Positions 23,903 through 50,996 of a stretch of 64,000 bases of DNA are shown here, in pieces. Both the position numbers and the translations under genes were made by a program. The DNA comes from Pseudomonadota bacterium (GTDB taxonomy: Bacteria > Pseudomonadota > Gammaproteobacteria > Burkholderiales > Thiobacillaceae), in contig JAJZPG010000001.1 of NCBI GenBank assembly GCA_021811235.1, positions 1-64,000 of the forward strand. Direction: 5' to 3'. The notes under the pieces are model-generated. The model searched no databases. It had not been told where the DNA came from and worked only from the letters and a program-made list of their open reading frames with translations. Each line of letters opens with the position of its first letter. The stretch's first letter is position 1.

Positions 23903-24499
23903 TCACAGGCCGTTGCGGATCACCCCGACCGCGATGCCCTCGATGACCAGGTCCTGGCGCGTGAGGTCGACCTCGATCGGCTGGAAGTCGGGGTTCTCCG
24001 GGAGCAGTTTCACGGTGTGGCCACGCTTCTGGAAGCGCTTGACCGTGACCTCGTCGCCGATGCGCGCCACCACCACCTGCCCGGCCCGGGCCTCGGGGCT
24101 GCGATGCACCGCGAGCAGGTCGCCGTCGAGGATGCCGGCGTCCTTCATGCTCATGCCGCGTACCTTGAGCAGGTAGTCCGCGCGCGGGCTGAACAGGGCG
24201 GCGTCGAACTGGACGTGCCGCTCGATGTTCTCCTGCGCCAGGATCGGACTGCCCGCCGCCACCTGGCCCACCACCGGCACCCCGCCGCCGCCCGCCAGCC
24301 GGATGCCGCGCGACGTCCCCGGCACCAGCTCCAGCATGCCCTTCTTCGCCAGCCCCTTGAGATGCTGCTCGGCCGCGTTGGGCGAGCTGAAGCCGAAGCG
24401 CTCGGCGATCTCCGCACGCGTCGGCGGCAGGCCGGTGGTCTCGATCCATTCGCGGATGAGGTTCAGGATTTCTTCCTGGCGGGGGGTCAGGTCTCGCAT
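23903..24499 (-). CDS. lexA: LexA SOS repressor
   Basis: A 198-residue LexA. The N-terminal winged helix ([20 protein letters not shown] with [20 protein letters not shown]) is followed by the self-cleavage Ala-Gly in QVAAGSP, the catalytic Ser in [10 protein letters not shown] and Lys in [10 protein letters not shown]. The ATG at 24499 matches the usual MRDLTPRQ start; the 9 codons before it fall inside the operator. Two SOS boxes lie directly upstream, so LexA represses itself and probably the divergent gene. Confidence 0.97.
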
Positions 24500-24516
24500 G
24501 GGGCTTCCTCCGAATA

Positions 24517-24548
24517 CTGTATACATTTACAGTTGTATGCGTATACAG
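24517..24548. promoter_or_regulatory. Two adjacent SOS (LexA) boxes
   Basis: Box 1, CTGT-N8-ACAG at 24517-24532, is a perfect core. Box 2, TTGT-N8-ACAG at 24533-24548, has one mismatch and directly abuts box 1. They occupy the divergent promoter region between lexA (minus, start 24499) and the small gene at 24620 (plus), so both should be under SOS control. Confidence 0.9.
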
Positions 24549-30444: not shown

Positions 30445-33400
30445 TTACCGCCTTGCGCCTGACTGCGCCCGCAGCGCCTCATAAAGCTGAGCCGGCCCCA
30501 GCAGAATATCCTTCAACCCATTGCGCACCCTCTCAGAGTCCAGCGCCTGTTTGCTCATGGTGCCGTGTGCCGTGAAGGCATCCATGATGGCATTCATCAG
30601 TTCGTTGGAAAGGTCAGGCGAATTGGCGAATTGCTCCTTGGTGTTGTTTGCGGCCTGTTGCGCGAGTGTGTCCGACTCCAGCAGCTTGCCCTTCAGCACA
30701 TGGTTCACGTACACCAGCTTGTCGTCGTCTGTCAGTTCGCCCTCGAACAAGGTGTTCACCTTTTCGATGATCGCGGCGAGGCGAACCTTCTCCTTTTCCT
30801 GGATTTCACCGCTACCCGTCTCGGTCAACGGCTTCAATTTGTCAGGCTCGCCCACGCCCAGCGGTAGATTGCGCTTGCCCTGGTCTTTCAGCCTGTGGTG
30901 GGTCAAAACCACCTTCGACAGGTCAACGCCTTCGCGCTCGCGCCCGAACTCCAGCAAAGGTAAAAGTCGCTTGAAGAAAATGGCGCGCTTTTCGATACCG
31001 GTGTTGCCATAGTCGAAAATCTGCGAGAGGAAGGCATACACGCGGAGAAAGCCGCCCAGATTGCGCTTGAACAACACCAGCGCATTGATCTCATCCTTGG
31101 CCTGCTGCTCGGCCTTGCCGTCCCTCAAATCCTGCGCGGCTTTCAGCCCCGCCCGTGCTGCCTTGTAACGCTTCAGCAGCCGGTCGGCCACCGGCTCGAT
31201 GGCGGCGACCAATTCGTACTGGTTCGCCCTGGGGTCCATTTCAACCTTCACCACCCGCTCGACCTCGTTGTCGTCGTAATGCCCGGCGGCATCCAGTTGG
31301 GCTCGCAGGTCGTAGACCAGATGCGGATCGGTCACGCCCTCCAGTTCCGCCGTCTCGTAGTAGGTCTTGAACGCGCTCAGCACTTCCTCGGGGGCGTTCA
31401 CGAAGTCGAGGATGTAGGTCGTGTCCTTGCCCGGATAGGCGCGGTTCAGGCGTGACAGCGTCTGCACGGCCTGGATGCCGGCCAGCCGCTTGTCCACGTA
31501 CATGCCGCACAGCAGGGGCTGGTCGAAGCCAGTCTGGAACTTGTTGGCCACCAGCAGGATCTGGTACTCGCTGGTGGCGAAGGCTTCGCGCATGTCGCGG
31601 CCATTCAGGTTCGGATTCAGCGTCTTGCTGTTTTCGGTGTAGGGATCGGGACCGGATTCCTTGTCGTTCACCTCGCCCGAGAACGCCACCAGCGTACCGA
31701 TCCGGTAGTTCTGATCCTTGATGTACTTGTCGATAGCGAGTTGCCAGCGCACCGCCTCCACCCGGCTGCCCACCACCACCATCGCCTTGGCACGCCCCTC
31801 CAGCAGCGGGGCGACGTTCTCCATGAAGTGTTCCACCACCACCTGCACCTTCTGGGTGATGTTGTAGGGGTGCAGCCGCACCCAGCGCATGATGCCCTTC
31901 AGCGCCTCGCTGCGCTCCACTTCCTTCTCGTCCCACTCGCGGCCCTCGTTGGCGAGCCGGAATGCCAGCTTGTAAGGCGTGTAGTTCTTCAGCACGTCGA
32001 GGATGAAGCCTTCCTCGATGGCCTGACGCATCGAATACACATGGAACGGCTTGGGCAGGTTGCCCGGCCCGGCAGGCCGATCCGGATTCGGGCGGCGGCC
32101 GAACAGCTCCAGCGTCTTCGCCTTGGGCGTGGCGGTGAACGCCACATAGGTGATGCCCTTGTCGTTCGCCCGCGCCGCCATCTGCGCTGCCAGCAGGTCT
32201 TCGGTGCTGACTTCGCCGCCGTCGGCCAGCTCGTGCAATTCCTCCGCGCTCAATACCTGCTTCAGCTTGGAGGCCGCCTCACCGGTCTGCGAGCTGTGCG
32301 CCTCGTCGGCAATCACCGCGAAGCGCTTGCCCTGGGTCGCGGCCAGTTCCTGCACCGCCTTCAGGGCGAAGGGAAAGGTCTGGATCGTACAGACCACGAT
32401 CTTCTTGCCGCCGGAGAGCGCCTGCGCCAGTTCGCCGCTCTTGCTTGCACTCTCGCCCTTGATCGTCGCCACCACCCCGGCCGTGCGCTCGAAATCGAAG
32501 ATCGCCTCCTGCAACTGCGTGTCCAGCACATTGCGGTCGCTCACCACCAGCACCGAGTCGAACAGCTTGTTGTTGGCTGCATCGTGCAGGTCGGCGAGGA
32601 AATGTGCTGTCCAGGCGATGGAGTTGGTCTTGCCCGAGCCGGCCGAGTGCTGGATCAGGTACTTGCTCCCCTCGCCCGCTTGCGGGAGAGGGGCCGAGGG
32701 AGAGGGCGCATGCTCCGCCAGAATCGCTGCCAGCAGTTTTCGCGTCGCATCCAACTGGTGGTAACGCGGAAAGATGACGGACGTGATCTGCTTCTTGCTG
32801 TCGCGCTTGGTGACCAGATAGCGGCCGATGATCTCCAGCCAGCTCTCGCGCGCCCAGACCTGCTCCCACAGATATGCCGTGCGGTGGCCCAGCCTGTTCA
32901 CCGGATTCCCCGCCGCGCCGTGGTCGCCCAGGTTGAACGGCAGAAAGGTCGTCGCCGGGCCTTGCAGCCGGGTGGTCATCATCACTTCGCTGTTGCTCAC
33001 CGCGAAGTGCACCAGCGCGCCGCGCGGAAAGTCGAGCAGCGGCTCCGCAGCCGGCTGGCCCTTGGGGCGCGGGTTACGGTCGAAGCGGTACTGATCGACC
33101 GCGTCCAGCACCGATTGCGTGAAATCGGTCTTCAGTTCGACCGTCGCCACCGGGATGCCGTTGAGGAACAGCACCAGGTCGATGATGTCGTTGTGCGTGG
33201 TTTTGATCTGCCGCACCACGCGCAGCCGGTTGGCGGCGTACTTCGCCTGCAAATCGGGGTTCATCGCCAGCGCCGGCCTGAACTGGGCGAGGCTCAACGG
33301 CTGGCGCAAGCCCAGCAACTCGATGCCATGCCGCAGTACGTCGAGCGTGCTGCGGTCATCCAATTGCTTGCGCAGGCGGTCGAGCAGCGTGGCCTCCGCT

Positions 33401-33594
33401 GCCGCGCCGTGGTTCTTGCTGAGGGTTGCCCAGGCTTGCGGCTGGGTCGCCTGCACCCACGCCAGCACGTCAGCCGGATACATGGCGCGTGCGCTGTCGT
33501 AGCCCTGGGCATCCCCCTCGCCATACAGCCAGCCGTGGGCGACCAGGTGGGCGCAGACGTCGTTCTCGAACTGGATTTCCTTGTGCAGGCTCAT
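30445..33594 (-). CDS. hsdR: Type I restriction endonuclease subunit R
   Basis: A 1049-residue translocase/nuclease. The N-terminal PD-(D/E)xK nuclease shows IDLVLFLNGIPVATVELKTD, with the E-x-K. The SF2 helicase motor has Walker A in HSAGSGKTNSIAW, DEAH box in VIADEAHSSQTGE, FTATPKAKTLE as motif III and SRLNRAYPGKDTTYILDF as motif VI. A coiled-coil C-terminus binds the methylase core. The ATG at 33594 overlaps the end of the PIN-domain gene. It forms the restriction part of HsdR2M2S1 with hsdM and hsdS ~2 kb upstream in the same direction. Confidence 0.96.
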   Translation of the reverse strand: MSLHKEIQFENDVCAHLVAHGWLYGEGDAQGYDSARAMYPADVLAWVQATQPQAWATLSKNHGAAAEATLLDRLRKQLDDRSTLDVLRHGIELLGLRQPLSLAQFRPALAMNPDLQAKYAANRLRVVRQIKTTHNDIIDLVLFLNGIPVATVELKTDFTQSVLDAVDQYRFDRNPRPKGQPAAEPLLDFPRGALVHFAVSNSEVMMTTRLQGPATTFLPFNLGDHGAAGNPVNRLGHRTAYLWEQVWARESWLEIIGRYLVTKRDSKKQITSVIFPRYHQLDATRKLLAAILAEHAPSPSAPLPQAGEGSKYLIQHSAGSGKTNSIAWTAHFLADLHDAANNKLFDSVLVVSDRNVLDTQLQEAIFDFERTAGVVATIKGESASKSGELAQALSGGKKIVVCTIQTFPFALKAVQELAATQGKRFAVIADEAHSSQTGEAASKLKQVLSAEELHELADGGEVSTEDLLAAQMAARANDKGITYVAFTATPKAKTLELFGRRPNPDRPAGPGNLPKPFHVYSMRQAIEEGFILDVLKNYTPYKLAFRLANEGREWDEKEVERSEALKGIMRWVRLHPYNITQKVQVVVEHFMENVAPLLEGRAKAMVVVGSRVEAVRWQLAIDKYIKDQNYRIGTLVAFSGEVNDKESGPDPYTENSKTLNPNLNGRDMREAFATSEYQILLVANKFQTGFDQPLLCGMYVDKRLAGIQAVQTLSRLNRAYPGKDTTYILDFVNAPEEVLSAFKTYYETAELEGVTDPHLVYDLRAQLDAAGHYDDNEVERVVKVEMDPRANQYELVAAIEPVADRLLKRYKAARAGLKAAQDLRDGKAEQQAKDEINALVLFKRNLGGFLRVYAFLSQIFDYGNTGIEKRAIFFKRLLPLLEFGREREGVDLSKVVLTHHRLKDQGKRNLPLGVGEPDKLKPLTETGSGEIQEKEKVRLAAIIEKVNTLFEGELTDDDKLVYVNHVLKGKLLESDTLAQQAANNTKEQFANSPDLSNELMNAIMDAFTAHGTMSKQALDSERVRNGLKDILLGPAQLYEALRAQSGARR

Positions 33595-34013
33595 TTCAGG
33601 AATTGTGCGGGAGTCAAAATCGGGATGCCTTGCCACGGATTCAGCGCCAGCAAATCATCGTCGCTGGAAACCAGGACATTCGCCGAACAATGCGCAGCCA
33701 GCGCCAGAAACTTGTTATCGCGCGGGTCGCGGCAAGCTTGCGACAAAGCCGATTCCGCGGCCTCGGTCACCGGAAACAACAGCACCTGATTACGATAACG
33801 CTGAAAAAAATCCAGGCGGCTGTCGCGGTCGAGATAACGGTCGAACTTCCTTCGCAATAACACTCGCTCCAGCTCCTCCAGCGTGGCGGGCGATGCGCAC
33901 AAGGTAGCGCGCGCCAGTGCCTGCATGAACGCCTGCCGCGGCACGGATCGCGGCAGCAGGATTGCACCGACCAGCGTACTGGTATCCAGCACCACCCGTT
34001 CAGCCAGGCTCAC
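33591..34013 (-). CDS. PIN-domain toxin (COG1569 type)
   Basis: A 140-residue PIN-domain ribonuclease. Acidic metal-binding residues are visible in VVLDTSTLVGAIL, EELERVL and DPRDNKFLALAAHCSANVLV, with a final SSDDDLL. PIN toxins of this group cleave RNA and pair with Phd/AbrB antitoxins. It overlaps the start of hsdR (four bases) and follows the Phd gene by four bases, so all three are expected on one transcript. Confidence 0.88.
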   Translation of the reverse strand: MSLAERVVLDTSTLVGAILLPRSVPRQAFMQALARATLCASPATLEELERVLLRRKFDRYLDRDSRLDFFQRYRNQVLLFPVTEAAESALSQACRDPRDNKFLALAAHCSANVLVSSDDDLLALNPWQGIPILTPAQFLK

Positions 34014-34017
34014 CGGC

Positions 34018-34290
34018 TCAAGCGCCCTTGACCATCCGCTTGACGTCGGCCTCGGTCAGCGCCTTCGCCTCCGCACTCAAACGCGCATCCACCCCGGCGA
34101 AATAAGCCTCGAAGTCCGCCACGGCCTGCGAACGCTTGTTGCGCGCATCGGCCAGCTCCGCCATGTCGTGCTGCGAAACGATAAACGCCACCGGGCGGCC
34201 ACGCCGGGTGATCGAAATCGGCTCACGCTGGGCGTTGTCCAGCAACTCGCCAAAATGGTTCTGGGCTTCGACAGAAGAAACGGTTTTCAT
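34018..34290 (-). CDS. Phd/YefM-family antitoxin
   Basis: A 90-residue protein. VSSVEAQNHFGELLDNAQRE and PISITRRGRPVAFIVS are the DNA-binding N-terminal domain of Phd/YefM. A flexible acidic C-terminal part probably covers the PIN toxin's active site. RBS AAGGGGG precedes the ATG. It has its own good promoter (34320-34347), so the pair can be expressed independently of hsdMS. Confidence 0.9.
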   Translation of the reverse strand: MKTVSSVEAQNHFGELLDNAQREPISITRRGRPVAFIVSQHDMAELADARNKRSQAVADFEAYFAGVDARLSAEAKALTEADVKRMVKGA

Positions 34291-34319
34291 GACACCCCCT
34301 TGAACTAGCTAATTTAGCC

Positions 34320-34347
34320 ATTATAGACAGGACAGGAATGGCGGCAA
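34320..34347 (-). promoter_or_regulatory. Promoter of the Phd-PIN(-hsdR) unit
   Basis: On the minus strand, -35 TTGCCG (34342-34347) and a perfect -10 TATAAT (34320-34325) are separated by 16 bp. Downstream is the palindromic TAGCTA inside AACTAGCTAATT, a possible Phd autoregulation site, then the Phd RBS. Confidence 0.6.
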
Positions 34348-34363
34348 GCTTGCCCTCTCTCGT

Positions 34364-34385
34364 CATTCCCGCACAGCGGGAATCC
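34364..34385. repeat. ATTCCCGC palindrome (dispersed-repeat type)
   Basis: ATTCCCGC (34365-34372) and GCGGGAAT (34376-34383) form a perfect 8-bp stem with a 3-base loop in the context CGTCATTCCCGC, a sequence found in many proteobacterial intergenic repeats. Here it follows the DUF4268 gene and could end its transcript before the Phd promoter. Confidence 0.6.
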
Positions 34386-34401
34386 GTCCCCTGCGCGGAG
34401 T

Positions 34402-35505
34402 CTAGATTTTCAGCGACTGGATCGGTCCTTTCAGAGCCTTTTCCAGCTTGACCGCGTTCTTGATCATCCAGTCCTGTAGTTGCGGCCAGTCTGACTCGGG
34501 GGATTTCCAGCCGCCGCCAAAGTAATCTTTGCTGATGCGGCATCCCGACCGGTTGGGCAGGTCTTCCCAGGCAAGGGTGTCGCCGAACACTTTTTCGATT
34601 GCCTCGCGCTGGTCAAGCAGTGCCTTGAATGCCGCCTTGTTGGTCTCTTCGTTGTCCTTGCCGATGCGGATATAGCACTCCGCCCTCGCCCGGTCCTCCG
34701 TCAACGACGCCGTCAGCGTGAAACCCGATCGCCCGATCCCTGCCGACAGCCAATGATCCGTCGTCGTGCTGCGGTTCTTGAACAGTTCGGTTTGCGTGAC
34801 GGAGTTCTCGATGAATTGGGACCAGAAGCGCCGAAAAATCTCCTGCCGCTTGGTTCGGACTTTCTTGTTCTCCTGAACCTGCTCGCGAATCTTGACCTCG
34901 TAGTCCGCCGCTTCCGGCAGGGGAATGATCTGCGTCGCGTCCACCAGCACTTGCCCGTTCATCTTGTAGGGGCGCAGCCGAATGCAGCGAATGTCGAGAC
35001 CATGCTGATTGAGCCAGATCACCGACGTGGTGATTTCGGACGAAAAATCCGCCGAAACCAGGATGATGCGCACGTCGGCGTTCAGCTCCGCATCCTCGAT
35101 GGAGTCGAGTTCGAGAAACTCAAGAATTGCATTGCGTGCAACCAGGTCGGCCGCTTCGCCGCCGAGCATCTTGGCGTGTGCCGCGACTGCCTGATCCAGC
35201 GTCATGCTCGACACCATCGCCGCGTACCGGATGGCTTGAAGCTCCATGTGCCCGCCATCCTCGGTGCGCTTGACCTCCACCACAACCAGACCGCCCTGCT
35301 TGTCCAGGCACAAGAGGTCGATGCGCCGATTGCTGTCCTCCCAGTTGCCAAACTCTTCGGCCAGCACCAGCAACTCTTCGCCCAGCGGCGCGGTATCGGC
35401 ACGCAGCATTTTCTGAAGATGCTGGCGCTCCAGGATCAACTCGGCGGCAAAGGTCGTGGTGGGAACGGGACTGAGTTTGTCTGAAGTGATTGCATAAAGC
35501 GCCAT
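34402..35505 (-). CDS. DUF4268 protein with PD-(D/E)xK-like nuclease region
   Basis: A 367-residue protein. The N-terminal region has RRIDLLCLDKQGGLVVVEVK, the D-(x)n-E-x-K arrangement of restriction-type nucleases (NucS/RecB-like). The C-terminal ~150 residues, with FRRFWSQFIEN and later LDQREAIEKVFGDTLAWEDL, match DUF4268, which is often found beside restriction and defence genes. It lies between hsdS and the TA pair, 26 bp after the hsdS stop, and is co-oriented with the locus. Whether it cuts DNA or is a defence accessory is unknown. Confidence 0.8.
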   Translation of the reverse strand: MALYAITSDKLSPVPTTTFAAELILERQHLQKMLRADTAPLGEELLVLAEEFGNWEDSNRRIDLLCLDKQGGLVVVEVKRTEDGGHMELQAIRYAAMVSSMTLDQAVAAHAKMLGGEAADLVARNAILEFLELDSIEDAELNADVRIILVSADFSSEITTSVIWLNQHGLDIRCIRLRPYKMNGQVLVDATQIIPLPEAADYEVKIREQVQENKKVRTKRQEIFRRFWSQFIENSVTQTELFKNRSTTTDHWLSAGIGRSGFTLTASLTEDRARAECYIRIGKDNEETNKAAFKALLDQREAIEKVFGDTLAWEDLPNRSGCRISKDYFGGGWKSPESDWPQLQDWMIKNAVKLEKALKGPIQSLKI

Positions 35506-35531
35506 GTTGATCCTCCCGTGATTTCTTGTTT

Positions 35532-36887
35532 TCAGTGCGCCCCGGCCAAGCCGCGCACATCGATCTTGCCGGTGACGGCGGCGGCGATCAGCGCGCTACG
35601 GCGTTCTTTGAGCAGCATGATCGCTCGCCCTGCCTCGACGATGAGTTCATCAAATTCCCGCACCCGTTCCAGCAACCAATCGACGGCTACGCGCTGCTCC
35701 ATTATCGGCGGCACCGGCACATAAATGTCCTTCACATTCCCGCAGTTCAGATGAGGATGCAGAGCTCCGGTCTGGATCGACAGCAAGGTGTGAAACCCGT
35801 AGTCGGCGGTCAATACCCAAGAAATCCAATCGCCAGCAACGACACCCTGCACCGGGGAAACGATGATTAATGCATGGCAGTTGCAGCCGACGAATTCCTC
35901 TGATACACACGCAACCTGGCCGATGTCGCCGGTTTGTACAATCAGAACGTCGCCCTCTCGAAGGACCGATTTCTGGTGCTCGTTACTCCATACCTCTCGA
36001 ACATAGTAGGGTTGGTCGAACTGGATTCGGTTGGCCTTGATATGAAGCGATTGCAGATATCGGATGCCCTCATCGACGAGAATATCGCGTGTCGGTCCAA
36101 CAAAGCCGTTCGTAATCTTGGTGCTGATCGATGAGAGCTTACGCACCTCCCAATGCGCCGGCACCTCGCCCAGCCATTCGATGCCGGAATCCTTCATCGG
36201 CACATCGGGGTCGAGGCCCTTGGTGACGGCGTGGGTGATGACGGCCTGGCGCTTTTCCTTGAGCAGCGCGATCAGCTTTTCCTGCGCGGCCACCAGTACG
36301 TCGATCTTGGCGGTTTCGTGGTCGAGGAAGGAGGTAATGGCGGCCTGCTCTTCCTGCGATGGGATTGGCACGACGATTTGGCCGATCATCGTTCCATTCA
36401 GATTTGCCAGACCAGTTGTTGAGTTGGACAGGAGATCAAATTGGAGTCTCGCCAAGTCGTTGTTCATTACATACCAAGCGAGTTTCGGTAAATATGATGA
36501 ATTCGTGCGAATTCGCTGCATGAAATTTGAATAGCAGCAATTCAAAGCTGCAATTTCGGTAGTAACGAGAGTCGTTTTCCCAATGTGCAACGAACTGCCA
36601 CTCGACTTCGTAACCAAGAGATCGCCGTCTGCTAGCAGCGCTGAATTTTTCTCTGCTACGGTCAGTTTTCTTGTAGCCGGGTCTTCAATCTTCCAATAGC
36701 CATCAACCGTCTGTTCTGTTGAACGCAAGACTATCGTGTCGGTTTCGCCATCAGGGTCATCACCCCAAACTCCACCATCATTCCGCTCGATCTGCCACTT
36801 AAACGGCGCAACTTTCCAATGTGCAGGAACGTCTCCCAGCCATTCCGCCCCGCTGTCCTTGTACTCGGGATAACGCGGGAAGCTCAC
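35532..36887 (-). CDS. hsdS: Type I restriction-modification specificity subunit
   Basis: A 451-residue protein with two target-recognition domains, each introduced by a similar motif: [20 protein letters not shown] near residue 8 and [20 protein letters not shown] near residue 230. Each is followed by a conserved helical spacer ([20 protein letters not shown] and then [15 protein letters not shown]). This sets a bipartite DNA target. The GTG at 36887 overlaps the hsdM stop (GTGA). The TRD parts have visibly lower GC than neighbours, as expected for exchanged specificity modules. Confidence 0.93.
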
Positions 36888-38626
36888 GCCGACAGCCCTT
36901 CGATCATGGCCTTGATGCGGTCGGTGACCTGCTTCAGTTCGACGTCGATCTCGGCCAGCGGACGCGGCGGCTGGAACACGTAGAAATGGCGGTTGAAGGG
37001 GATTTCGTAGCCGACCTTGGTCTTCTCGTGGTCGATCCAGGCGTCCGGCGCATGGGGCAGCACTTCGCGCTTGAAGTAGGCTTCCACATCCTCGTTCAGC
37101 GGCACGTTCTCGGTGTCGCGCAGGCTGGTATCGGGCTGGGGCTTGCCCTTCAGCTTGCCCTTGCTGCCGAGGACGATCTGGCCGGCTTCGTCGCACAACG
37201 GGCGTTCGACGGTGATTGTGCGGTAGCCGAAGTCGCTGCTGTTGAAGATACGGCTGATCGGTTTGCCGTCCTGCTCGGCCTCGACGAAATCGCCGAACAG
37301 GCGGGTTATCTGGGCGATATGGTCGTCGGACAGTTCCTTGCGCTTGGAACCCAGGCTCTTGCGCATCTTTTGCCAGAAGCCGCTGGCGTCGATGAGCTGC
37401 ACCTTGCCCTTGCGATGCACGGGCTTGCGATTGCTGAGTATCCAGATGTAGGTGGAAATGCCTGTGTTGTAGAACATGTCGGTCGGCAGGCCGACGATGG
37501 CTTCGACCAGGTCGTTCTCCAGCACATAGCGGCGGATTTCGGATTCGCCCGACCCTGCGCCGCCGGTGAACAGGGGTGAGCCATTGAGGACGATGCCGAA
37601 GCGGCTGCCACCCTCCTTGGCAGGACGCATTTTCGAGATCAGGTGCAGCAGGAACAGCATCGAGCCGTCCGACACGCGCGGCAGGCCGGGGCCGAAGCGG
37701 CCGTTGAAGCCCTGCTGCTCGTATTCCTTGCGGACTTCCTTCTCGACCTTCTTCCATTCCACACCGAACGGCGGGTTGGAGAGCATGTAGTCGAATTTGG
37801 TGTGCGGATGGCCGTCGTCGGACAGGGTGTTGCCGTAGACGATGTTGGCAACGTCCTGGTCCTTGATGAGCATGTCGGCCTTGCAGATGGCGTAGGACTC
37901 GGCGTTGAGTTCCTGCCCGAACATGGTGAGTCGCGCCTGCGGGTTGTGTTCTTCGAGATACTCGCCCGCCACGCTCAGCATGCCGCCGGTGCCTGCGGTG
38001 GGGTCGTAGATCGTGCGCACGACGCCGGGCTTGCTGAGGACGTCGTCGTCCTCGATGAAAATCAGATTCACCATCAGCCGGATGACCTCGCGCGGGGTGA
38101 AGTGTTCACCGGCCGTCTCGTTGGAGATTTCAGCGAACTTGCGGATCAGTTCCTCGAACACCAGCCCCATCTGGTGGTTGTCCACCGCCTCGGGGTGCAG
38201 GTCGATCTGCGCGAACTTCTCGGTCACCCGATACAGCAGCCCGCACTTGTGCAGGCGGTCCACCTGGGTGTGGAAGTCGAAACGCTCGAACAGGTCGCGC
38301 ACGGCGGGCGCGAACGTCTGCACGTAGCTGTAGAGGTTCTCGCGGATGTGATCCTGGTCGCCCATCAGCTTCTTCATGTCGAGCGGCGACGTGTTGTAGA
38401 AGCTCTGCCCGGACTTGCGCAGCAGGAAGGGCTCGGGGTTCACCCCCGCCTTCTGCTTGGACTCGTATTCAGCCAGCACGGCCGGCTTGGTGGCCTCCAG
38501 CACGCAGTCCAGGCGGCGCAGCACGGTGAACGGCAGGATGACCCGGCCGTACTCGGATTGCTTGTAGTCCCCGCGCAAGAGGTCGGCGACGGCCCAGATG
38601 AAGGCGGAAAGGGTTTGCTGATTCAC
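36884..38626 (-). CDS. hsdM: Type I restriction-modification methyltransferase subunit
   Basis: A 580-residue N6-adenine methylase. An N-terminal HsdM helical domain ([20 protein letters not shown]) is followed by SAM-binding motif I in [13 protein letters not shown] and catalytic motif IV NPPF in [13 protein letters not shown]. It is the first gene of the hsdM-hsdS-DUF4268-phd-pin-hsdR series and is tightly coupled to hsdS. Methylates the target adenines and protects host DNA. Confidence 0.96.
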
Positions 38627-39045
38627 AGGTCTACTTCGTCATTATTTTGTATGGGACTCAAGCTTGGGCAGGCAATCAAGCTGCCACTGCGGCTGCAATC
38701 TGATGTAGCCCAAGCGTACAGGCGGAGAATGTAGCATCGATTTCGGCGGCATGGTTCGGCGGCTGGGGCATGGCAGCCCGCACAGGGGCTCATGCGGCCG
38801 GCGCGCTGAATGTCGCGCCCACAGCTGATTGGAGGCCGTCGAAATGAAATGGCGGAAGGGAGTGGGAGTCGAACCCACCCGGGAGCGACTGACACCCCCA
38901 ACCGGACGCGCCCCCTGCCCGCTGCGTCCTCCTTCAAGCACGCCCCAAGCAGGCCGGCGCCCGGCGCAGGCTGCGAAATCGGCAATTGTTGTTTTTCGAT
39001 GCCCCTCTAATATGCAGAGAACACGCTTTCCTTTGCGAGGGCCCC
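38627..39045. other. Region between hsdM and the first DUF2173 gene
   Basis: The stretch contains the hsdM promoter region on the left and the selC-derived repeat at 38850-38906, listed separately. The AGGGCCCC just before 39046 is a modest RBS for the DUF2173 gene. Reading frames here have no recognisable protein. Confidence 0.5.
38850..38906 (-). repeat. Displaced selC 3' fragment (attachment-site repeat)
   Basis: These 57 bp are identical to 40700-40756, the 3' part of tRNA-Sec from the 3' strand of the anticodon stem through the variable arm and T arm to the CCA end. The fragment lacks the D arm and 5' acceptor strand, so it cannot be a tRNA gene. Tyrosine-recombinase elements that integrate at the anticodon-loop side of a tRNA gene leave this kind of duplicated 3' end. 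With the intact selC on the other side it brackets a ~1.8-kb island. Confidence 0.9.
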
Positions 39046-39381
39046 ATGTCCAGATCATCCGAGTTGCTCAAACTGCCGGGCGTCGTGTCTGCCGCGCTCT
39101 TTTCCAGGAAGGGTTTCCTGGAAGAGTTGGAGGGCGCGCTGACCGAAACCGAAGCGGCAGAAATGGCGAGCCTGTGCGCTGACATCAATCTGAACGTGGA
39201 GTTGGGGAGCCGCCTGCTGGGGCGCCTGGCCAACCAGACGGGCTGGGACTGTCAGGGCTGGGTCACGTTCGGGCCCGACGTGTCCCTCGTCACGGTCGGC
39301 GACAGTACCTGCATGGTGAAGGTCGGCGAGGCCTCGTTCAACCAGGTGGTCAAGGCCATGACCGGGTCGGCGGCCGGCTGA
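39046..39381 (+). CDS. DUF2173-family (roadblock/LC7-like) protein, copy 1
   Basis: A 111-residue protein. SELLKLPGVVSAALFSRKGF at the start and NQTGWDCQGWVTFGPDVSLV in the middle follow the layout of the other two copies, with LPGV at the N-terminal strand, an acidic helix, and a final F-N-Q-V-V-K-A helix. COG4831 calls this group roadblock/LC7-like. It is common in sulfur- and ammonia-oxidising betaproteobacteria, but the function is unknown. It is first of three tandem paralogues in the selC-bounded island. Confidence 0.75.
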   Translation: MSRSSELLKLPGVVSAALFSRKGFLEELEGALTETEAAEMASLCADINLNVELGSRLLGRLANQTGWDCQGWVTFGPDVSLVTVGDSTCMVKVGEASFNQVVKAMTGSAAG

Positions 39382-39411
39382 AGCAATCGAGCATCAGGAA
39401 AGGAGGACCAC

Positions 39412-39744
39412 ATGGCAACATTGGACGATCTGATGTCGCTGCCTGGGGTGTACGGGGCGATCGAATTTTCCTGCACGGGCGAGCTCGGCCAGATGCGCGG
39501 CGAGATGAGTCGCGATTTTGCCGAACTGGTGGCGCAGATGTGCGCCGCCAACATGGCGATCTATCGCATGCAGGCGACGGGATGGACGAAACTGACCGGG
39601 CAGCAGGGCTTTCTCCCGGAGCGGGGCTTCACCTTCGTCGGCCTCGAACATGTCGTGATGGGCATAAACGGCAATGCGGTGGTGGCGAGCCGAAATGATT
39701 TCGACTACGACGCGGCCTATCAGCGCCTCAATGCCGCCGGCTGA
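39412..39744 (+). CDS. DUF2173-family protein, copy 2
   Basis: A 110-residue protein. MATLDDLMSLPGVYGAIEFS is the diagnostic start of DUF2173, followed by LVAQMCAANMAIYRMQATGW and a DYDAAYQRLN C-terminal helix. RBS AAGGAGG. It is 30 bp after copy 1. The three copies diverge strongly from each other, which suggests old duplication and possibly heteromeric assembly. Function unknown. Confidence 0.82.
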   Translation: MATLDDLMSLPGVYGAIEFSCTGELGQMRGEMSRDFAELVAQMCAANMAIYRMQATGWTKLTGQQGFLPERGFTFVGLEHVVMGINGNAVVASRNDFDYDAAYQRLNAAG

Positions 39745-39771
39745 CGCCACGCGCCGAAAGGAGAACGCACC

Positions 39772-40098
39772 ATGCTGGAATTGGAGAACCTGCTTCTCGT
39801 CAAGGGTGTCGTTGCCGCGCTGCGTTTCCAGGACGACGGGACGCTTGCCGAGGCGGCAGGCGAACTGGAGCAGATCGACGCCCACCTGGCGGCAGAGATG
39901 TGTCAGGCGAACGGGCGCTTCATGCAGCACAACGGCGACATGTTCATGACGCTTTCCGGGGCGGACGGCTGGCCGGCGAGCGGCTGGATGATGGCGGGGG
40001 ACCGGCTTTCCGTGTGCGGCGCGTCCGACGTGGCGTGTTTCGTGCGCAATGGCGAGGTGTCCCTCAACGAAGTGTTTCGCGCCCTGGCGGAGATTTGA
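39772..40098 (+). CDS. DUF2173-family protein, copy 3
   Basis: A 108-residue protein: LENLLLVKGVVAALRFQDDG, then AEMCQANGRFMQHNGDMFMT and a VSLNEVFRALAEI C-terminus, clearly the same fold as copies 1 and 2. RBS AAAGGAGA. The gene ends ten bases before the strong hairpin at 40108-40141. It is the last gene of the presumed three-gene operon. Confidence 0.82.
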   Translation: MLELENLLLVKGVVAALRFQDDGTLAEAAGELEQIDAHLAAEMCQANGRFMQHNGDMFMTLSGADGWPASGWMMAGDRLSVCGASDVACFVRNGEVSLNEVFRALAEI

Positions 40099-40107
40099 GC
40101 ACGTCGT

Positions 40108-40141
40108 GCGGCCCATTGCAGGCCCGCCTGCAATGGGCCGC
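40108..40141. terminator. 15-bp perfect hairpin between convergent genes
   Basis: GCGGCCCATTGCAGG (40108-40122) pairs without mismatch with CCTGCAATGGGCCGC (40127-40141) around a 4-base loop. It lies between the third DUF2173 gene (+) and the membrane-protein gene (-), so it should work as a bidirectional terminator, although no long T-run follows on either side. Confidence 0.75.
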
Positions 40142-40160
40142 TTGCATCCGCAAGCTGCCG

Positions 40161-40664
40161 TTATTTGAGCTTCCGGTCTTCCCGCTTTGCCTCTTCCATG
40201 GCCTCGGGCTCGAGTTCTTCGGCATATCGGTTCAAGCGAACGAAATATGCCCACGCCGCGAGCAATATCCCTGTCGCCACCAAGATGATCGCGGCATATA
40301 ACAATTGCGCAGGCTCCTCATGAATGGCCTTGAATGTCGCAACGAGCCCTTCTATGGCGAGCGCGACGATGACGACCACAAAGAATCTCGACAGGAACCG
40401 GCGAATTCGAGTGGGCGCGCTGATGTCAGCGTTGCGAATGACCTCCTCCTCAAAGATCGTCTCAGCGATTTGAAGTGCGACAACGGCTGCAGCCAAAAGG
40501 CCTACCGCTTCAATGATGGTCTGCGCCGCCGCTCGATCCAGGCCACCGATGAATGCCAGCCAGCCCATGCGGGCAGCGATTGTGATGAGCATCAACGCAA
40601 AAGCGGCAAAAAATGCCGCCATCAGCCCATGGAAAATCCGGAAGGCGCGTACGAGGGCTTTCAC
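40161..40664 (-). CDS. Membrane protein with four predicted helices, function unknown
   Basis: A 167-residue protein (from GTG 40664; TTG 40679 is an alternative). Helices are at about residues 15-33, 45-63, 90-110 and 122-145, and a charged acidic C-terminal tail (ELEPEAMEEAKREDRKLK) follows. There is no catalytic motif. Codon use is less GC-rich than in neighbours, supporting acquisition with the island. It lies between the DUF2173 genes and selC. Confidence 0.7.
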   Translation of the reverse strand: MKALVRAFRIFHGLMAAFFAAFALMLITIAARMGWLAFIGGLDRAAAQTIIEAVGLLAAAVVALQIAETIFEEEVIRNADISAPTRIRRFLSRFFVVVIVALAIEGLVATFKAIHEEPAQLLYAAIILVATGILLAAWAYFVRLNRYAEELEPEAMEEAKREDRKLK

Positions 40665-40699
40665 CGATGTATCACCCAATGCCGAATACCCTGAATGTG

Positions 40700-40795
40700 T
40701 GGCGGAAGGGAGTGGGAGTCGAACCCACCCGGGAGCGACTGACACCCCCAACCGGATTTGAAGTCCGGCCGCACCACCAGGAACGCTTCCCTTCC
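40700..40795 (-). tRNA. selC: tRNA-Sec (selC), anticodon TCA
   Basis: A 96-nt minus-strand gene starts GGAAGGG at 40795 and ends with an encoded CCA at 40700. The features specific to tRNA-Sec are present: a long acceptor stem (GGAAGGGA pairing with TCCCTTCC), a long variable arm, the T arm GGGTTCGACTCCC, and the anticodon loop CTTCAAA reading UGA. It resembles E. coli selC closely in the anticodon arm. It is downstream of selB on the same strand. Its last 57 bp are repeated at 38850-38906. Confidence 0.97.
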
Positions 40796-40827: not shown

Positions 40828-42732
40828 TCAGGCCCTTTGTGCTGCGTCGCCGAACATGTCCGCGTTGCGCAGCCGGTGGGCTTCGCGCACGCGGCGCGTG
40901 TAGCCGACCCGGTCGAAGAACTCCAGAACCTGGACCGCGCGCTTGCGGCTGAGGCCGCTCCTGTCGCGGAATTCGGCGGCGCGGGTCTCGCCGCTGGCAT
41001 GCTCCAGGTCCTGCACCATGCCTGCCAATTGCTCGACGGCCTCGGGCAGGTAGAAGAGGTCGCGCACGACCTGATAGAGCCGGCCCTGGCGCGATAGTTT
41101 CTGCAGCAGGCAGCGCATCGCGGCCTCGTCGCGCCCTGCCCGCTTGGCGAGGTCGCGCATCCAGGGCGGGTCGAGCGGCGATTCGGCAATCCACGTCTGG
41201 ACACGCTGCCACAGCGCTTCGTCCTCGCGGGAGAGCGCGAGGGTGTGCGCCGGCAGGTGCAGCCAGGGGCCGCTCTTCTGCAGGCTGCCGGCACCGAGCA
41301 GCGCCTCGGTGAGCGCGGCGAACACCGGCGCGGCCAGCCGGGGGAAGAACATGCGGCGGGCGCGCGCGGCCTCGGGGCCCTGCTCGTCGGGAAAGCGCTC
41401 GTGAAAGCCGGCGAGGTCGGCGACGAGCTTCTCCTTTAGGCTCGCCCAGTGCGCCGCCGAAAACGCCCAGTCCGCCTGGCCGGCGTGGATGCGGACGCTG
41501 CCGGCCGGCAGGTGGCCGGCGAGGTCGTCGCGGTTCCAGTGCAGCGCGCACTGCCTGAGGTCGACGCCGCCGAGGTCGAGCAGGCGCGCCAGCCGCCCGG
41601 CGATATCGGGCGTTTCCAGCGCGGCGAGTTCGGCCAGCCGCAGCGGCGTCTTGCGCTTGCGCGCCGGGGCGTCGGGGTCGAGCACGCTGCCGCCGCCCAG
41701 GGTGTGGCGCGCCTCGGCGTCGCGCAGAATGAAGCGGTCGCCGTTCAGGGCGCCGAGGGGGGGGTCGGCGACGAGCTGGGCGAGCATGGAGGCGCCGGGC
41801 GCGAGCGTGTCGCCCTGCAGCAGCGCGACGCGCGCCATGACGTGGGCGGCGCCCAGGTGCAGGTGGACCGGCGCCCAGTGGGCGAGCGCCGCCGGGGCCG
41901 CAGGCGAAAGCTTGAGCCGCACGTCGAAGCGCGCGGTCGGCGCGTGCAGGCGCGGCGCGACGATCCAGTCGCCGCGCGCGATCTCGTCCTTGGCCACGCC
42001 CGCCAGATTGAGTGCGCAGCGCTGCCCGGCGCGGCCCGCCTGCGCCGGCCGGTTCATCACGTGCAGGCCGCGCAGGCGCACGGCTTTGCCGGACGGCGAC
42101 ACCACCAGCTCGTCGCCCACCGCGACGCGGCCGGCGAACACGGTGCCGGTGACGACGGTGCCGGTGCCCTTGAGGGTGAAGCTGCGGTCGACCGCGAGGC
42201 GGAAGCCGCCTGCTTCGTCCGCGCGCTGCATCGCCTGCGCCGCCTGGTGCAGGTGCGCGCGCAAGGCGTCGACGCCCTGCCCGCTCAGCGCCGACACCGG
42301 GAACACCGGGCTGCCGGCGAGCGCGGTGCCGGCGAGCAGGTCGCGGAGATCGCGCTCGACCTCATCGAGGCGTGCGGCGTCGACGCGGTCGGCCTTGGCG
42401 AGCGCGACCGTGCCGCGGGGGATGCCGAGCAGGTCGAGGATGGCGAGGTGCTCGCGCGTCTGCGGCATCACGCCGTCGTCGGCCGCCACTACCAGCAGCG
42501 CGAAGTCGATGCCGGCGGCGCCGGCGAGCATGGTGTGGATGAAGCGCTCGTGGCCGGGGACGTCGACGAAGCCGAGCACGCCGCCGTCCTCCAGCGGCTG
42601 GTAGGCGTAGCCCAGCTCGATGGAGATGCCGCGCGCCTTCTCTTCCTTGAGGCGGTCGGTGTCGACGCCGGTGAGCGCGCGCACCAGCGTGGTCTTGCCG
42701 TGGTCGATGTGTCCGGCGGTGCCGACGATCAT
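40828..42732 (-). CDS. selB: Selenocysteine-specific elongation factor
   Basis: A 634-residue GTPase that delivers Sec-tRNA-Sec to UGA codons with a SECIS. G1 is [17 protein letters not shown] at residue 4, G3 is [11 protein letters not shown] and NKAD-like [10 protein letters not shown] marks G4. The EF-Tu-like domains are followed by the C-terminal winged-helix repeats (from ~residue 370) that bind SECIS RNA. Length matches E. coli SelB (614). It lies immediately upstream of selC. Confidence 0.97.
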
Positions 42733-42898: not shown

Positions 42899-44014
42899 TC
42901 ACGATTGCGCGCCCCTTGCGTTTTCCCCGGACAACTCCTTCGAGGTGATCTGGTAGCCGAAGGCCGCGGCGTCGAGGCTGTCGAGCATGCCGGCGGCGGT
43001 CTCGGCCTGCGGGTACATGAGGAAGGGCACGGTGACGCCGCGCGAACCCGGCAGCGGCAGGTCGTGCGCGGTGTTGTAGGCGAGCCAGTTCATTTCCCAG
43101 CTGCCGAACAGACGCTTCCTGACGTCGGCCACCTTGGCGTCGTCGAGGGCGAGGTTGCCGGGCGGCTCTTCCAGCACCACCTTGCGCACGTCGGCGGGGT
43201 CGACCGGCACCCAGCCGTGTCCGGCGAGCCACACCTCGGCGCGGCAGTGCTGCGCCTTGCTGATGTCGCCGCTCTTGCCGAGGCTCTTGTAGCCGAAACG
43301 CGAGTCGGCCACGCGGATGCCGTAGACGTCGCGCGCCGGCAGCCCGGCGGCGCGCGCCAGGCCGACGTAGAGCGCGTTGAGGTCGGCGCACTTGCCGGAG
43401 AGGTCGCGCGACTCCAGCATGAAGCGGATGTCGCCGCGCCCGCAGCCGCGCGTCTTCGGGTTGCGGAAGGTGTTGTCGACCACCCACTCGTAGATCGCGC
43501 GGGCACGCTCCTGGTCGGTCCGGGCGCCGCGGGTGATGTCGAGCGCGGTTTTTTTCACGATGCCGTCGGTGGGCAAGAGCTGGGTGGCCCGGGTATAGCG
43601 CTGGCGGTCGACGCGCGAGAGCGGCGCAGGCCGGGCGGATCGGCCGAGGTCGACGGCGCGGTCGCGCGTGGCGAAGCGGCTGGTCACCTCCAGCACCGGC
43701 TTCTCGCCGGGCGCCCATTCGGCGTAGAGCATCTCGGCACCGTATTGCGGATTGCGCAGCAGCCGCACGGTCTGGGCGTTGCCCTGCCACAGGTTGCCCA
43801 TGTTGCGGATCCAGCCCTCTTCCTGCACCGAAGGCAGCGGCAGCCAGGTGCGGGTCGCGCCTTCCGGCTGCAGCACGTCCACGCGCGTGGTGACGTCGAA
43901 CACGCGCCAGCCATGTTCCGGCGACGGGTCGAACGCCGCCATGCCGCGGCGGACAGGCCACATCACGCCGGCGGCGAGGGCCACGGACGTCCAGATGAAT
44001 TCACGTCGTTGCAT
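42899..44014 (-). CDS. Exported transglutaminase-like protein
   Basis: A 371-residue protein with a Tat-like signal (RREFIWTSVALAAGVMWPV). The transglutaminase-like catalytic core shows Cys in SGKCADLNALYVGLA, His in KAQHCRAEVWLAG and Asp in VPVDPADV. It lies between selA and selB in the selenoprotein operon, which is not a usual partner; a role in processing or maturing the exported formate dehydrogenase is only a guess. The family can be peptidase or acyltransferase. Confidence 0.72.
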   Translation of the reverse strand: MQRREFIWTSVALAAGVMWPVRRGMAAFDPSPEHGWRVFDVTTRVDVLQPEGATRTWLPLPSVQEEGWIRNMGNLWQGNAQTVRLLRNPQYGAEMLYAEWAPGEKPVLEVTSRFATRDRAVDLGRSARPAPLSRVDRQRYTRATQLLPTDGIVKKTALDITRGARTDQERARAIYEWVVDNTFRNPKTRGCGRGDIRFMLESRDLSGKCADLNALYVGLARAAGLPARDVYGIRVADSRFGYKSLGKSGDISKAQHCRAEVWLAGHGWVPVDPADVRKVVLEEPPGNLALDDAKVADVRKRLFGSWEMNWLAYNTAHDLPLPGSRGVTVPFLMYPQAETAAGMLDSLDAAAFGYQITSKELSGENARGAQS

Positions 44015-47924: not shown

Positions 47925-50900
47925 TTATACCTTCTCAAGGTCCACGAGGAACGACTTGAACTCGGGGGTCTGGGTGTTCGCATCCCCGACGAAGGGCGTC
48001 AGCGTGTTGGTGATGTAGCCGTTCTTCGCCACGCCGGTGAAGCCCCAGTGGATCGGAACGCCCACCGTGTGCACCTTCCTGCCGCCGACGTCGAGCGTGC
48101 GCACGCGCTTGGTGACCACCGCCACCGCGACGATGAAGCCGCGGTTGGACTTCACCCGCACGTGGTCGCCGGCCTTGATGCCCTTGTCCTTCGCCAGCTC
48201 CTCGCCGATTTCCACGAACTGCTCGGGCTGCACGATGGCGTTGAGCCTCACGTGCTTGGTCCAGAAGTGGAAGTGTTCGGTGAGACGGTAGGTGGTGCAC
48301 ACGTAGGGGAATTTGTCGGCCTTGCCGAAGGTTTCCCAGTCGCCCTTGAACACCCGCGCGGCCGGATTGGCCCGCGCCTTGTCGTTCTTCGGGTGCAGCA
48401 GGTTGACGGCGAGCGGCGACTCCAGCGGTTCATAGTGCTCCGGGAAGGGCCCTTCCGCCATCTTGTCGACCGCGAAGAAGCGCGCCACACCTTCGGGGTT
48501 CATGATGAAGGGGCTCATCCCGTCCTCCGGCGCCGAATCCGGCTTGAAGTCCGGAATGTCGGAGCCGCCCCACTTGCCGGTCGCCGCGTCCCACGCGATC
48601 AGTTTGCGCGAGGGATCGTAGGGCTTGCCGCTCGGGTCGCATGAGGCGCGGTTGTAGAGCACGCGCCGGTTGGCCGGCCAGGCGAAGGCCCAGTTGAGCG
48701 TCTGGCCGATGCCGAAGGGGTCGCTGTTGTCGCGCCGCGCCATCAGGTTGCCCTTCTCGGTCCAGGCGCCGGAGAAGATCCAGCAGCCGCAGGCGGTGGA
48801 GCCGTCGTCGCGCAGTTCGGCGAAGCCGTTGAGCTGCTCGCCCGCCTTCACCAGCACCTTGGCCGGGTCCTTCGGGTCGGTGACGTCCTTCAGCGCCTTG
48901 CCGGAGAATTCCTTCGCCAGTTCTTCCGGCGAGGGGAAATGCGGCTGCTTGTACTTCCACGTCAAGTTGAGGATGGGATCGGGGAAGGCCCCGCCCTCCT
49001 TCTGGTACAGCTCGCGGAGCTTGAGGAAGATCCCGGCCATGATCTCCTGGTCGCTCCGGGCGTCGCCGGGCGGCTCGGCGGCCTTCCAGTGCCATTGCAG
49101 CACGCGGCTGGAACTCACCAGGGAACCGTCTTCCTCGGCGAAGCAGGTCGACGGCAGGCGGAACACCTCGGTCTGGATCTTGGCCGGATCGACGTCGTTG
49201 TACTCGCCGTGGTTCTGCCAGAACTCCGAGGTCTCGGTGGCCAGCGGGTCGATGGTCACCAGGAACTTCAGCTTGGCGAGCGAACCGGACACCTTCACCT
49301 TGCACGGCGCCGACGACAGCGGATTGAAGCCCTGGCAGACGTAGCCGTTGACCTTGCCCTGGTTCATGTTCTCGAACACCTGCAGGATGTCGTAGCCCTT
49401 GTCGAGCTTGGGCAGCCAGTCGTAGGCCCAGTTGTTCTCCGCCGTGGCGGCGTCGCCGTACCAGGCCTTCATGGTGCTGACGTGGAACTTGCCGTAGTTC
49501 GACCAGTAGGACAGCTGGCCCGGGCGCAGCGGCTTGAACGCGCGCTTCGCGATGTAGGCCGCGTAGTCCTGCTCCGCGTCGCCGGGCAGGGTCATGTAGC
49601 CGGGCAGCAGATTGGACAGGAGGCCCAGGTCGGTCAGCCCCTGGATGTTGGAGTGGCCGCGCAGCGCGTTCATGCCGCCGCCGGCGACGCCGATGTTGCC
49701 GAGCAGCAGCTGCACCATCGCGCCGGTGCGGATCATCTGCGAGCCCTGCGAGTGCTGTGTCCAGCCCAGCGCGTACATGATGGTCATGGTCTTGTTGGAC
49801 GCCGAGGTCTCGGCGATCATCGCGCACACCTTGAGGAAGTCCTCCTTGGGCGTGCCGCAGATGCTGGAAACCATGTCGGGCGTGTAGCGGCTGTAGTGCG
49901 CCTTCATCATCTGGTAGACGCAGCGCGGGTGCTGCAGCGTCGGGTCGGTGACGACGTAGCCGTCCGCGCCGATCTGGTAGCCCCAGCTCGACTTGTCGTA
50001 GCTGCGCTTTTCCGGGTTGTAGCCGGAGAAGATGCCGTCCTCGAAGCCGAAGTCGTCCTTCACCAGGAAGCTCATGTCCGTGTAGTGCTTCACGTACTCG
50101 TGGTGAATCCTGTCGTGGCTCAGCAGGTAGTGGATGACGCCGCCGAGGAAGGCGATGTCGGAGCCGGCACGGATCGGCGTGTAGAAGTCCGAGACCGCCG
50201 CCGAGCGGGTGAAGCGCGGATCGACCACGATCAGGCGCGCCTTGCGGTGGGCTTTCGCTTCGGTCACCCACTTGAAGCCGCAGGGGTGCGCCTCGGCGGC
50301 ATTGCCGCCCATGATCAGGACCAGGTCGGTGTTCTTGATGTCAACCCAATGGTTGGTCATCGCACCGCGGCCGAACGTCGGGGCAAGACTTGCCACCGTC
50401 GGGCCGTGTCAGACACGCGCCTGGTTGTCGAATGCGAGCATCCCCAGGCTACGCGCGATCTTGTGCGTCAGATAGCCGGTTTCGTTGCTGGAGGCCGAGG
50501 CGGCGAGCATGCCGGTGGAGACCCAGCGGTTCACCGTCTCGCCTTTTTCGTTGGTGGCGATGAAGTTCCTGTCGCGGTCGTCCTTCATCAGCCTGGCGAT
50601 GCGGGTGAAGGCCTCGTCCCAGGAGATCGGCGTCCATTCCTTGCTGCCGGGGGCGCGGTATTCCGGACGCTTGAGGCGGTTCGGGCTGTGCACGAAGTCG
50701 AGCAGGCCGGCGCCCTTGGGGCACAGGGTGCCGCGGTTCACCGGGTGGTCGGGGTCGCCCTCGATGTGGATGATCTCGGTATGCGCGTTCTTCGCCTTGT
50801 CGCCCAGGCTGTACATCAAGAGGCCGCAGCCGACCGAGCAGTAGGGACAGGTGTTGCGCGTCTCGGTGGCGCGGGCGAGCTTGAAGGCCCGCACCTCCGC

Positions 50901-50996
50901 CAGCGCCTCGCCGGGCGCGAAGCCCAGCGCCGCAAGGCTGGAACCGCCCACCCCCGCCGCGCAGATTCTGAAAAACTGTCTCCGGGTCACTTGCAT
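47925..50996 (-). CDS. fdnG: Selenocysteine formate dehydrogenase, catalytic alpha subunit
   Basis: Read through the TGA at 50409-50411, this is one 1023-residue protein with Sec at residue 196, the same position as in E. coli FdnG. The context is DNQARV[19 protein letters not shown]. The Tat signal is [17 protein letters not shown], and the [4Fe-4S]-binding motif [16 protein letters not shown] is near residue 50. The molybdopterin domains follow. It oxidises formate in the periplasm, with electrons going to FdnH-FdnI and quinone. Standard annotation would split it into two ORFs at the TGA. selA, selB and selC in the same cluster supply the decoding. Confidence 0.97.
50371..50411 (-). promoter_or_regulatory. 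UGA-Sec codon with bacterial SECIS hairpin
   Basis: Directly after the UGA, the RNA can fold as GG-UGGC and GGCA-AGUCU-UGCC, a stem capped by a short loop containing GUC, like the E. coli fdhF/fdnG SECIS loop AGGUCU at the same distance from UGA. It recruits SelB's C-terminal domain. The codon is followed by CACGGCCC, as in E. coli fdhF. Confidence 0.85.

Follow-up and report, generated by a model that had tools for sequence, protein, structure and literature searches.

A 57-bp relic of selC beside a DUF2173 operon in a Thiobacillaceae genome: a possible trace of recombination anchored at a tRNA gene

How does a bacterial chromosome come to hold an exact copy of the 3' part of a tRNA gene close to its parent, with no integrase between the two? 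The question is raised by the selenocysteine tRNA gene, selC, in the first 64,000 nucleotides (the window) of contig JAJZPG010000001.1, from a member of the Thiobacillaceae (assembly GCA_021811235.1). A fragment of this kind is commonly taken as the mark of an integrated island, and a sequence-only reading of the window had seen here an island made by a tyrosine recombinase, with three DUF2173 genes as its cargo. We tentatively favour another account, to which we give somewhat less than an even chance: the locus would be a composite in which two versions of the interval from selC to its left flank were joined by recombination anchored at selC, with a 57-bp relic of the tRNA gene left behind. 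Below, G000 is the genome under study, other G codes are genomes of Thiobacillaceae and L codes are fetched loci. The core of the locus is made up as follows.

38850–38906, minus strand: relic of the selC 3' end, 57 bp, 100% identical to its partner (repeat search and probes)
38907–38981, no strand: spacer from the relic to the leader of the DUF2173 operon, with weak likeness to the intergenic region between flank gene and DUF2173 operon in G080 (alignment)
38982–39045, plus strand: leader of the DUF2173 operon, common to G075 and G080 (sequence comparison)
39046–39381, plus strand: DUF2173 gene a (PF09941, 82.6 bits)
39412–39744, plus strand: DUF2173 gene b (PF09941, 114.8 bits)
39772–40098, plus strand: DUF2173 gene c (PF09941, 114.1 bits)
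40108–40141, no strand: terminator-like perfect 16-bp inverted repeat between the convergent DUF2173 operon and MEM (repeat search)
40161–40664, minus strand: MEM, a membrane protein of ~167–177 aa of no known family, start uncertain (open reading frame, Pfam)
40700–40756, minus strand: duplicated part of selC, tRNA positions 40–96 through CCA (sequence, repeat search)
40704–40795, minus strand: selC, intact tRNA-Sec gene, anticodon TCA (ARAGORN, Rfam)

The two copies form a direct repeat, identical at 57 of 57 positions and spaced by 1850 bp. A 30-nt repeat probe with up to three mismatches found two sites in the window, namely both copies, and matched in none of 100 shuffles; a 22-nt probe for the selC 3' end, with the same tolerance, had these two copies as its sole matches in the 2.85-Mb genome. 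The parent is an intact tRNA-Sec gene by ARAGORN and by Rfam (RF01852, 80.2 bits). The repeat had been described as starting at the anticodon stem and ending at CCA. This holds for the 3' strand of the stem and for CCA, where identity between the copies ceases; the anticodon loop and the 5' strand of the stem are not included, and position 40, directly after the loop, is the first in the repeat. As in tRNA-gene islands, an intact gene is followed downstream by a 3' fragment in the same orientation, and the fragment terminates at the tRNA 3' end. The length from repeat to repeat is below the 2 kb minimum of the Islander method. Judged by its sequence, the repeat matches neither usual class of tRNA crossover cleanly; a 3' crossover with extra identity would possibly be compatible with the start at position 40.

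Between the copies lie the three DUF2173 genes on the plus strand, the inverted repeat and the convergent MEM gene. The PF09941 scores stand well above the cut-off of 26.1 bits, while NCBIfam gives the DUF2173 genes no name. MEM has no Pfam family above cut-off and sub-threshold NCBIfam matches, and its GC content is 56.3% against 66.1% for the window. The identity of the repeat, its origin in selC, the three DUF2173 genes, the strong terminator, the lower-GC membrane protein gene and the absence of an integrase between the copies were thus all read correctly from the sequence. The four enclosed genes are DUF2173 or without family, and a PF00589 search found no match on this contig and six in the genome, all on other contigs. 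The suggestion that one of these might use selC as its attB found no support: no further selC 3'-end copy (22 nt, up to three mismatches) lies near any of the six, and we rejected the idea of a selC-specific integrase encoded elsewhere and accompanied by such a copy, as none was found. A tyrosine recombinase at L084 184–1221 (contig C12 of the same genome) we take to be of the integron type.

We then followed the DUF2173 operon through a family sample of 117 genomes. A close gene b occurs in 21, all of which keep the order a-b-c; among gene b relatives in named assemblies, 14 of 20 loci come from Thiobacillus, Thiobacillaceae or Hydrogenophilales. In the operon tree G000 pairs with G075 (99/94), and is then joined by G053 (92/85, long branch), G080 (93/83) and G099 (91/94). 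Genes of the selC-to-flank interval were sought within ~10 kb of the operon in 14 of the 21 contexts. They were present in all three subclade relatives with usable context (G075, G053 and G080) and, by definition, in G000, but in none of the nine contexts outside the subclade, of which four are truncated at one end. The G099 operon sits on a 3.3-kb contig that bears no interval gene. G080 has, one after the other, the left flank gene, the DUF2173 operon, a GGDEF/EAL gene and the transglutaminase-like gene (TGL), with the flank gene 195 bp upstream of the operon; selA, selB, selC, MEM and hsdM are absent from that place, and selC (77% identical) lies on another contig. G053 has the left flank gene 153 bp upstream of the operon, with no selA, selB, selC, MEM or hsdM in 19.5 kb around it and no selC match in the genome. 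In G075 the operon is flanked by lexA and, on its other side, by SOS genes; near it there is also a distantly HsdM-like gene (28%). A second, diverged DUF2173 triplet lies in the genome under study (L083 5836–6925, contig C40).

Because the subclade operons occupy the same neighbourhood without selC being there, the operon is best seen as an inhabitant of that neighbourhood, with the reservation that G099, close to G000 by SelB and TGL, carries other genes between MEM and SOS genes. The DUF2173 genes are therefore probably not cargo in the sense that had been proposed. A generally mobile cassette with defined ends was likewise dropped, since the operon's own subclade keeps its neighbourhood. 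Among 19 operons compared, many pairs share nothing outside the operon, and some groups share flanks (for instance L118/L120, L115/L121 and L127/L129/L130/L131). No tRNA gene lies in 20 of the loci (L114–L133) or in another 26, which include six MEM loci. When 20 operons were compared with flanks of up to 900 bp, a long flanking repeat was present only in G000; the next best was 18 nt (E 5e-4, L119).

A selC match was found in 36 of the 117 genomes, G000 included, and the relatives contribute 38 selC or selC-fragment loci from 35 genomes, five of which extend less than 1 kb past selC. None of the 38, these five included, holds a DUF2173 gene, and MEM adjoins selC in two (G099 and G073). Eight loci have the left flank gene within the fetched stretch, 1.3 to 7.8 kb past selC, without MEM or DUF2173 between. 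The comparison of relatives that the sequence-only reading had proposed thus gave a mixed answer, with the interior absent from these eight loci and the operon present in the neighbourhood in G080, G053 and G075. It came close to the finding that had been named as evidence against an island, DUF2173 genes kept beside selC without the duplication: the neighbourhood is the same, but these relatives lack selC there. Identity to the window's selC is 100% in G099 and G061; many near relatives have 92–99%, and distant ones as little as 76%.

With E 0.011 as the limit for accepting an extra selC copy as real, G073 has two decayed copies, G075 one of full length that is predicted as a tRNA, G082 one of 20 nt and G005 one of 65 nt, which lies on another contig. 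A match in L054 (E 0.011, 65.6% identity, tRNA interior) was set aside as noise, and a 20-nt match in L081 (E 0.018) is weaker than the line drawn. Second copies in relatives are 73–92% identical, against 100% for the G000 relic, and lie at similar distances downstream of selC: 2.0 kb in G075, ~0.6 and 2.3 kb in G073 and 1.85 kb in G000. In G073 (L058, contig C124) the order after selC is MEM, a decayed selC copy, some three small genes and another decayed copy, this one nearly full-length. The second, full-length selC of G075 (L049 5296–5390) has a microsatellite-like expansion in its 3' part, and a sulfite-reductase-like gene lies between the two copies. No integrase was seen between the copies in either genome, where some small open reading frames were unscanned. 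This suggests that selC is a recurrent site of recombination. A full-length second selC such as that of G075 is not left by integration at the 3' end and so fits recombination.

MEM occurs at 70% identity or more in nine of the 117 genomes, the one under study included, and at selC in three of these. We rejected the idea that MEM is mobile everywhere: five of the six genomes with MEM away from selC have it in shared flanks. Before MEM, the stretch common to the three genomes starts 23 nt past CCA in G000 and 24 nt past it in G099 and G073. The G000–G099 distance divided by the mean distance to G073 is 0.52–0.72 across selB and 1.1–1.2 past selC, and none of 5000 codon resamples of selA, TGL and selB reached the MEM value of 1.07. 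Such a change of relatedness at selC fits an inserted element and selC-anchored homologous recombination alike.

The account that we favour also involves the wider locus, whose features are these.

22280–23815, plus strand: left conserved flank gene (AAA_33; profile search, relatives)
23903–24526, minus strand: LexA, start of the interval's lexA/SOS block (PF01726/PF00717)
30445–33636, minus strand: HsdR (PF04313/PF18766)
35532–36884, minus strand: HsdS specificity subunit, start uncertain (PF01420)
36884–38626, minus strand: HsdM, first gene past the relic (PF02384/PF12161)
40828–42732, minus strand: SelB (profile search)
42899–44014, minus strand: transglutaminase-like gene (TGL), right conserved flank (PF01841, relatives)

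Left of the relic come, in order, hsdM, hsdS, a DUF4268/NucS-like gene and hsdR, a type I restriction-modification cluster at 30445–38626. On the right, selC is followed by selB, TGL, selA and formate dehydrogenase. The alpha subunit of the latter (47925–50996, minus strand) has an in-frame TGA at codon 196, so that the standard code splits the gene into two open reading frames, and Rfam places a SECIS_3 element within it at 50356–50414; selC therefore has a job here.

In the composite that we propose, one version of the interval would have held MEM beside selC together with the DUF2173 operon, and the other hsdMSR and, further on, the lexA/SOS block. An incoming selC–MEM–DUF2173 stretch would have paired with the resident selB/selC, selC being a good recombination anchor because it is highly conserved among near species. 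At the far end of the incoming stretch a non-homologous join would have formed within the resident selC, at tRNA position 39/40. This would have displaced the former 3' end of selC, now the 57-bp relic, together with hsdM next to it, and the DUF2173 operon would have been carried along with its neighbours rather than as the payload of a selC element. The end of the relic at CCA needs no extra assumption, since species differ in the sequence that immediately follows selC. Recombination anchored at selC with a non-homologous far end would explain the missing loop, the missing integrase, the operon without selC in relatives and the full-length copy in G075. From these patterns we infer the mechanism, its direction (that is, which version came in) and the action of RecA rather than an integrase.

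Several observations weigh against this account. An exact end at CCA in direct orientation is also the classic signature of an integrase. In G099, the sister of G000 by SelB (93/95) and TGL (96/96), the stretch from MEM to the SOS genes holds a DUF3313 gene and another gene but none with DUF2173, and the G000 operon has closer relatives than that of G099. Because the G075 operon lies between lexA and SOS genes, the operon must have changed its place in the neighbourhood one or more times. The resemblance between the spacer and the G080 intergenic region, reached by 0 of 500 shuffles, is reached by 3–7% of random genomic windows and is thus weak and marginal. Since eight loci have the flank gene after selC without MEM or DUF2173, G000 may instead have gained both. 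Simple serial displacement would leave the outer relic of G073 as the more decayed one, whereas it is the inner. The relatedness ratios of selA (0.85–1.13) are similar to those past selC, and the bootstrap range of MEM (0.86–1.30) includes the selA value of 0.88; the jump at selC is therefore not unique, and several exchanges in the region are likely. Finally, the DNA next to the relic (38627–38849) was unmatched in the 117 family genomes (up to four candidates scored per genome) and in 399 genomes of the order (up to two per genome), and neither a donor nor a pre-event locus or empty site was found in these genomes. As the native flank of some relative's selC, this DNA gave a best score that 31 of 2000 shuffles equalled, uncorrected for the number of loci compared; this is not significant.

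The proposal of a site-specific element that restored selC with its own 3' half, carried MEM and the DUF2173 genes as cargo and lost its integrase or used one in trans has real precedents in the family. In G082 a P4-type integrase lies directly after selC, with PF13356, PF22022 and PF00589 all above cut-off, and a 20-nt repeat of the selC 3' end (E 0.011) follows ~11.4 kb past selC. In G005 a 65-nt fragment repeats the genome's own selC exactly from position 32, in the anticodon loop, to CCA, and a divergent tyrosine integrase (L081 1115–2493; PF13356 25 bits, PF00589 18.7 bits, both below cut-off) lies ~50 bp away. The DNA behind this copy resembles the native selC flank of G004 (0 of 2000 shuffles as good), and the flank of the intact G005 selC does not (470 of 2000). 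The G005 locus, from a different genus of the family, is probably a selC element of the anticodon type, and the two cases together make it very likely that the proposed mechanism operates at selC in the family. Among the PF00589 matches listed for 30 genomes, that of G082 alone lies within 15 kb of selC and the G005 gene is absent; with the own integrases as queries (five effective) against the relatives' selC loci, the G005 integrase was missed, so that absence elsewhere is weak evidence. Enterobacterial selC islands carry P4-type integrases and short 3'-end repeats. They share the tRNA-Sec target with G000, and the G082 element is of their type; the G000 locus is not.

For G000 itself we regard such an element as rather unlikely. 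The direct 3' fragment exact to CCA, the shift of relatedness at selC and the enclosure of MEM alone between selC and a decayed copy in G073 all speak for it, as do the fragment starts near the anticodon arm (40 in G000, 32 in G005 and perhaps 27 in G073 by BLAST, with a looser alignment from 2). Yet the contig has no PF00589 gene, no selC 3'-end copy accompanies the six integrases, a crossover in the loop would need a later deletion since the fragment lacks the loop, MEM adjoins selC without any relic in G099, and the operon inhabits the same neighbourhood where relatives have no selC. The reverse order of events, with MEM and the operon already in place when the hsd segment entered with a donor's selC 3' end and homology on the lexA/SOS side, is improbable in our view. 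It would suit G099, which also has MEM beside selC and SOS genes beyond, so that G000 differs between MEM and window position 29.7 kb, and selC is conserved enough for a donor copy to look identical; but MEM itself shows the change of relatedness, no donor with hsdM beside selC was found in searches of limited sensitivity, and HsdM of the window has no match in the 38 relatives' selC loci. That an old second copy, like those of G075 and G073, was trimmed to its 3' part by deletion is very improbable: the similar spacing of the copies agrees with it, but the relic is 100% identical where other second copies are 73–92%, the match stops exactly at CCA, and the 5' half left no trace on either side (1647 and 1544 of 5000 shuffles scored as well). 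The same missing trace led us to discard an insertion of the DUF2173 operon inside a second selC copy.

The composite that we favour can be set beside known systems. As far as the Islander description in PMC4383910 goes, its islands resemble G000 in the intact tRNA gene with a direct downstream fragment reaching the tRNA 3' end; G000 differs in having no integrase, in falling under the 2-kb floor, in a fragment edge between the anticodon-loop and T-stem classes and in an operon that relatives hold in the same neighbourhood without selC. The account of Vibrio type VI secretion system arrays in PMC5361080 proposes sequential displacement, with the old 3' part pushed back, and calls such recombination rare. 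As described there, the arrays share with G000 a conserved anchor, new genes beside it, a displaced old 3' part and no known integrase, whereas here the anchor is a tRNA gene, G000 has a single relic and the order of decay in G073 misfits. In Sulfolobaceae DUF2173 is reported in PMC11323534 as a domain of a sulfur-responsive membrane protein, and tRNA fragments are a subject of PMC9897764. The arrangement was not found in titles and abstract openings of the literature on selC with recombinases or islands and on selenocysteine or genomic islands in Thiobacillus; a literature on homology-facilitated illegitimate recombination exists.

The neighbourhood in relatives argues that the origin or persistence of a tRNA fragment need not mean that the genes which it encloses are cargo. 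Should conserved tRNA genes also act as plain homology anchors, island maps built on fragments alone would over-call small islands. A wider extension, which we think unlikely as it stands, is that in Thiobacillus-like bacteria selC, through its strong conservation, serves as an integrase-free recombination anchor at which repeated arrivals of foreign stretches with selC and adjoining genes leave full or partial relics (G000, G073 and G075) and so build small gene arrays next to the genes for selenocysteine use. The interest of the locus lies in selC as a recurrent site of recombination.

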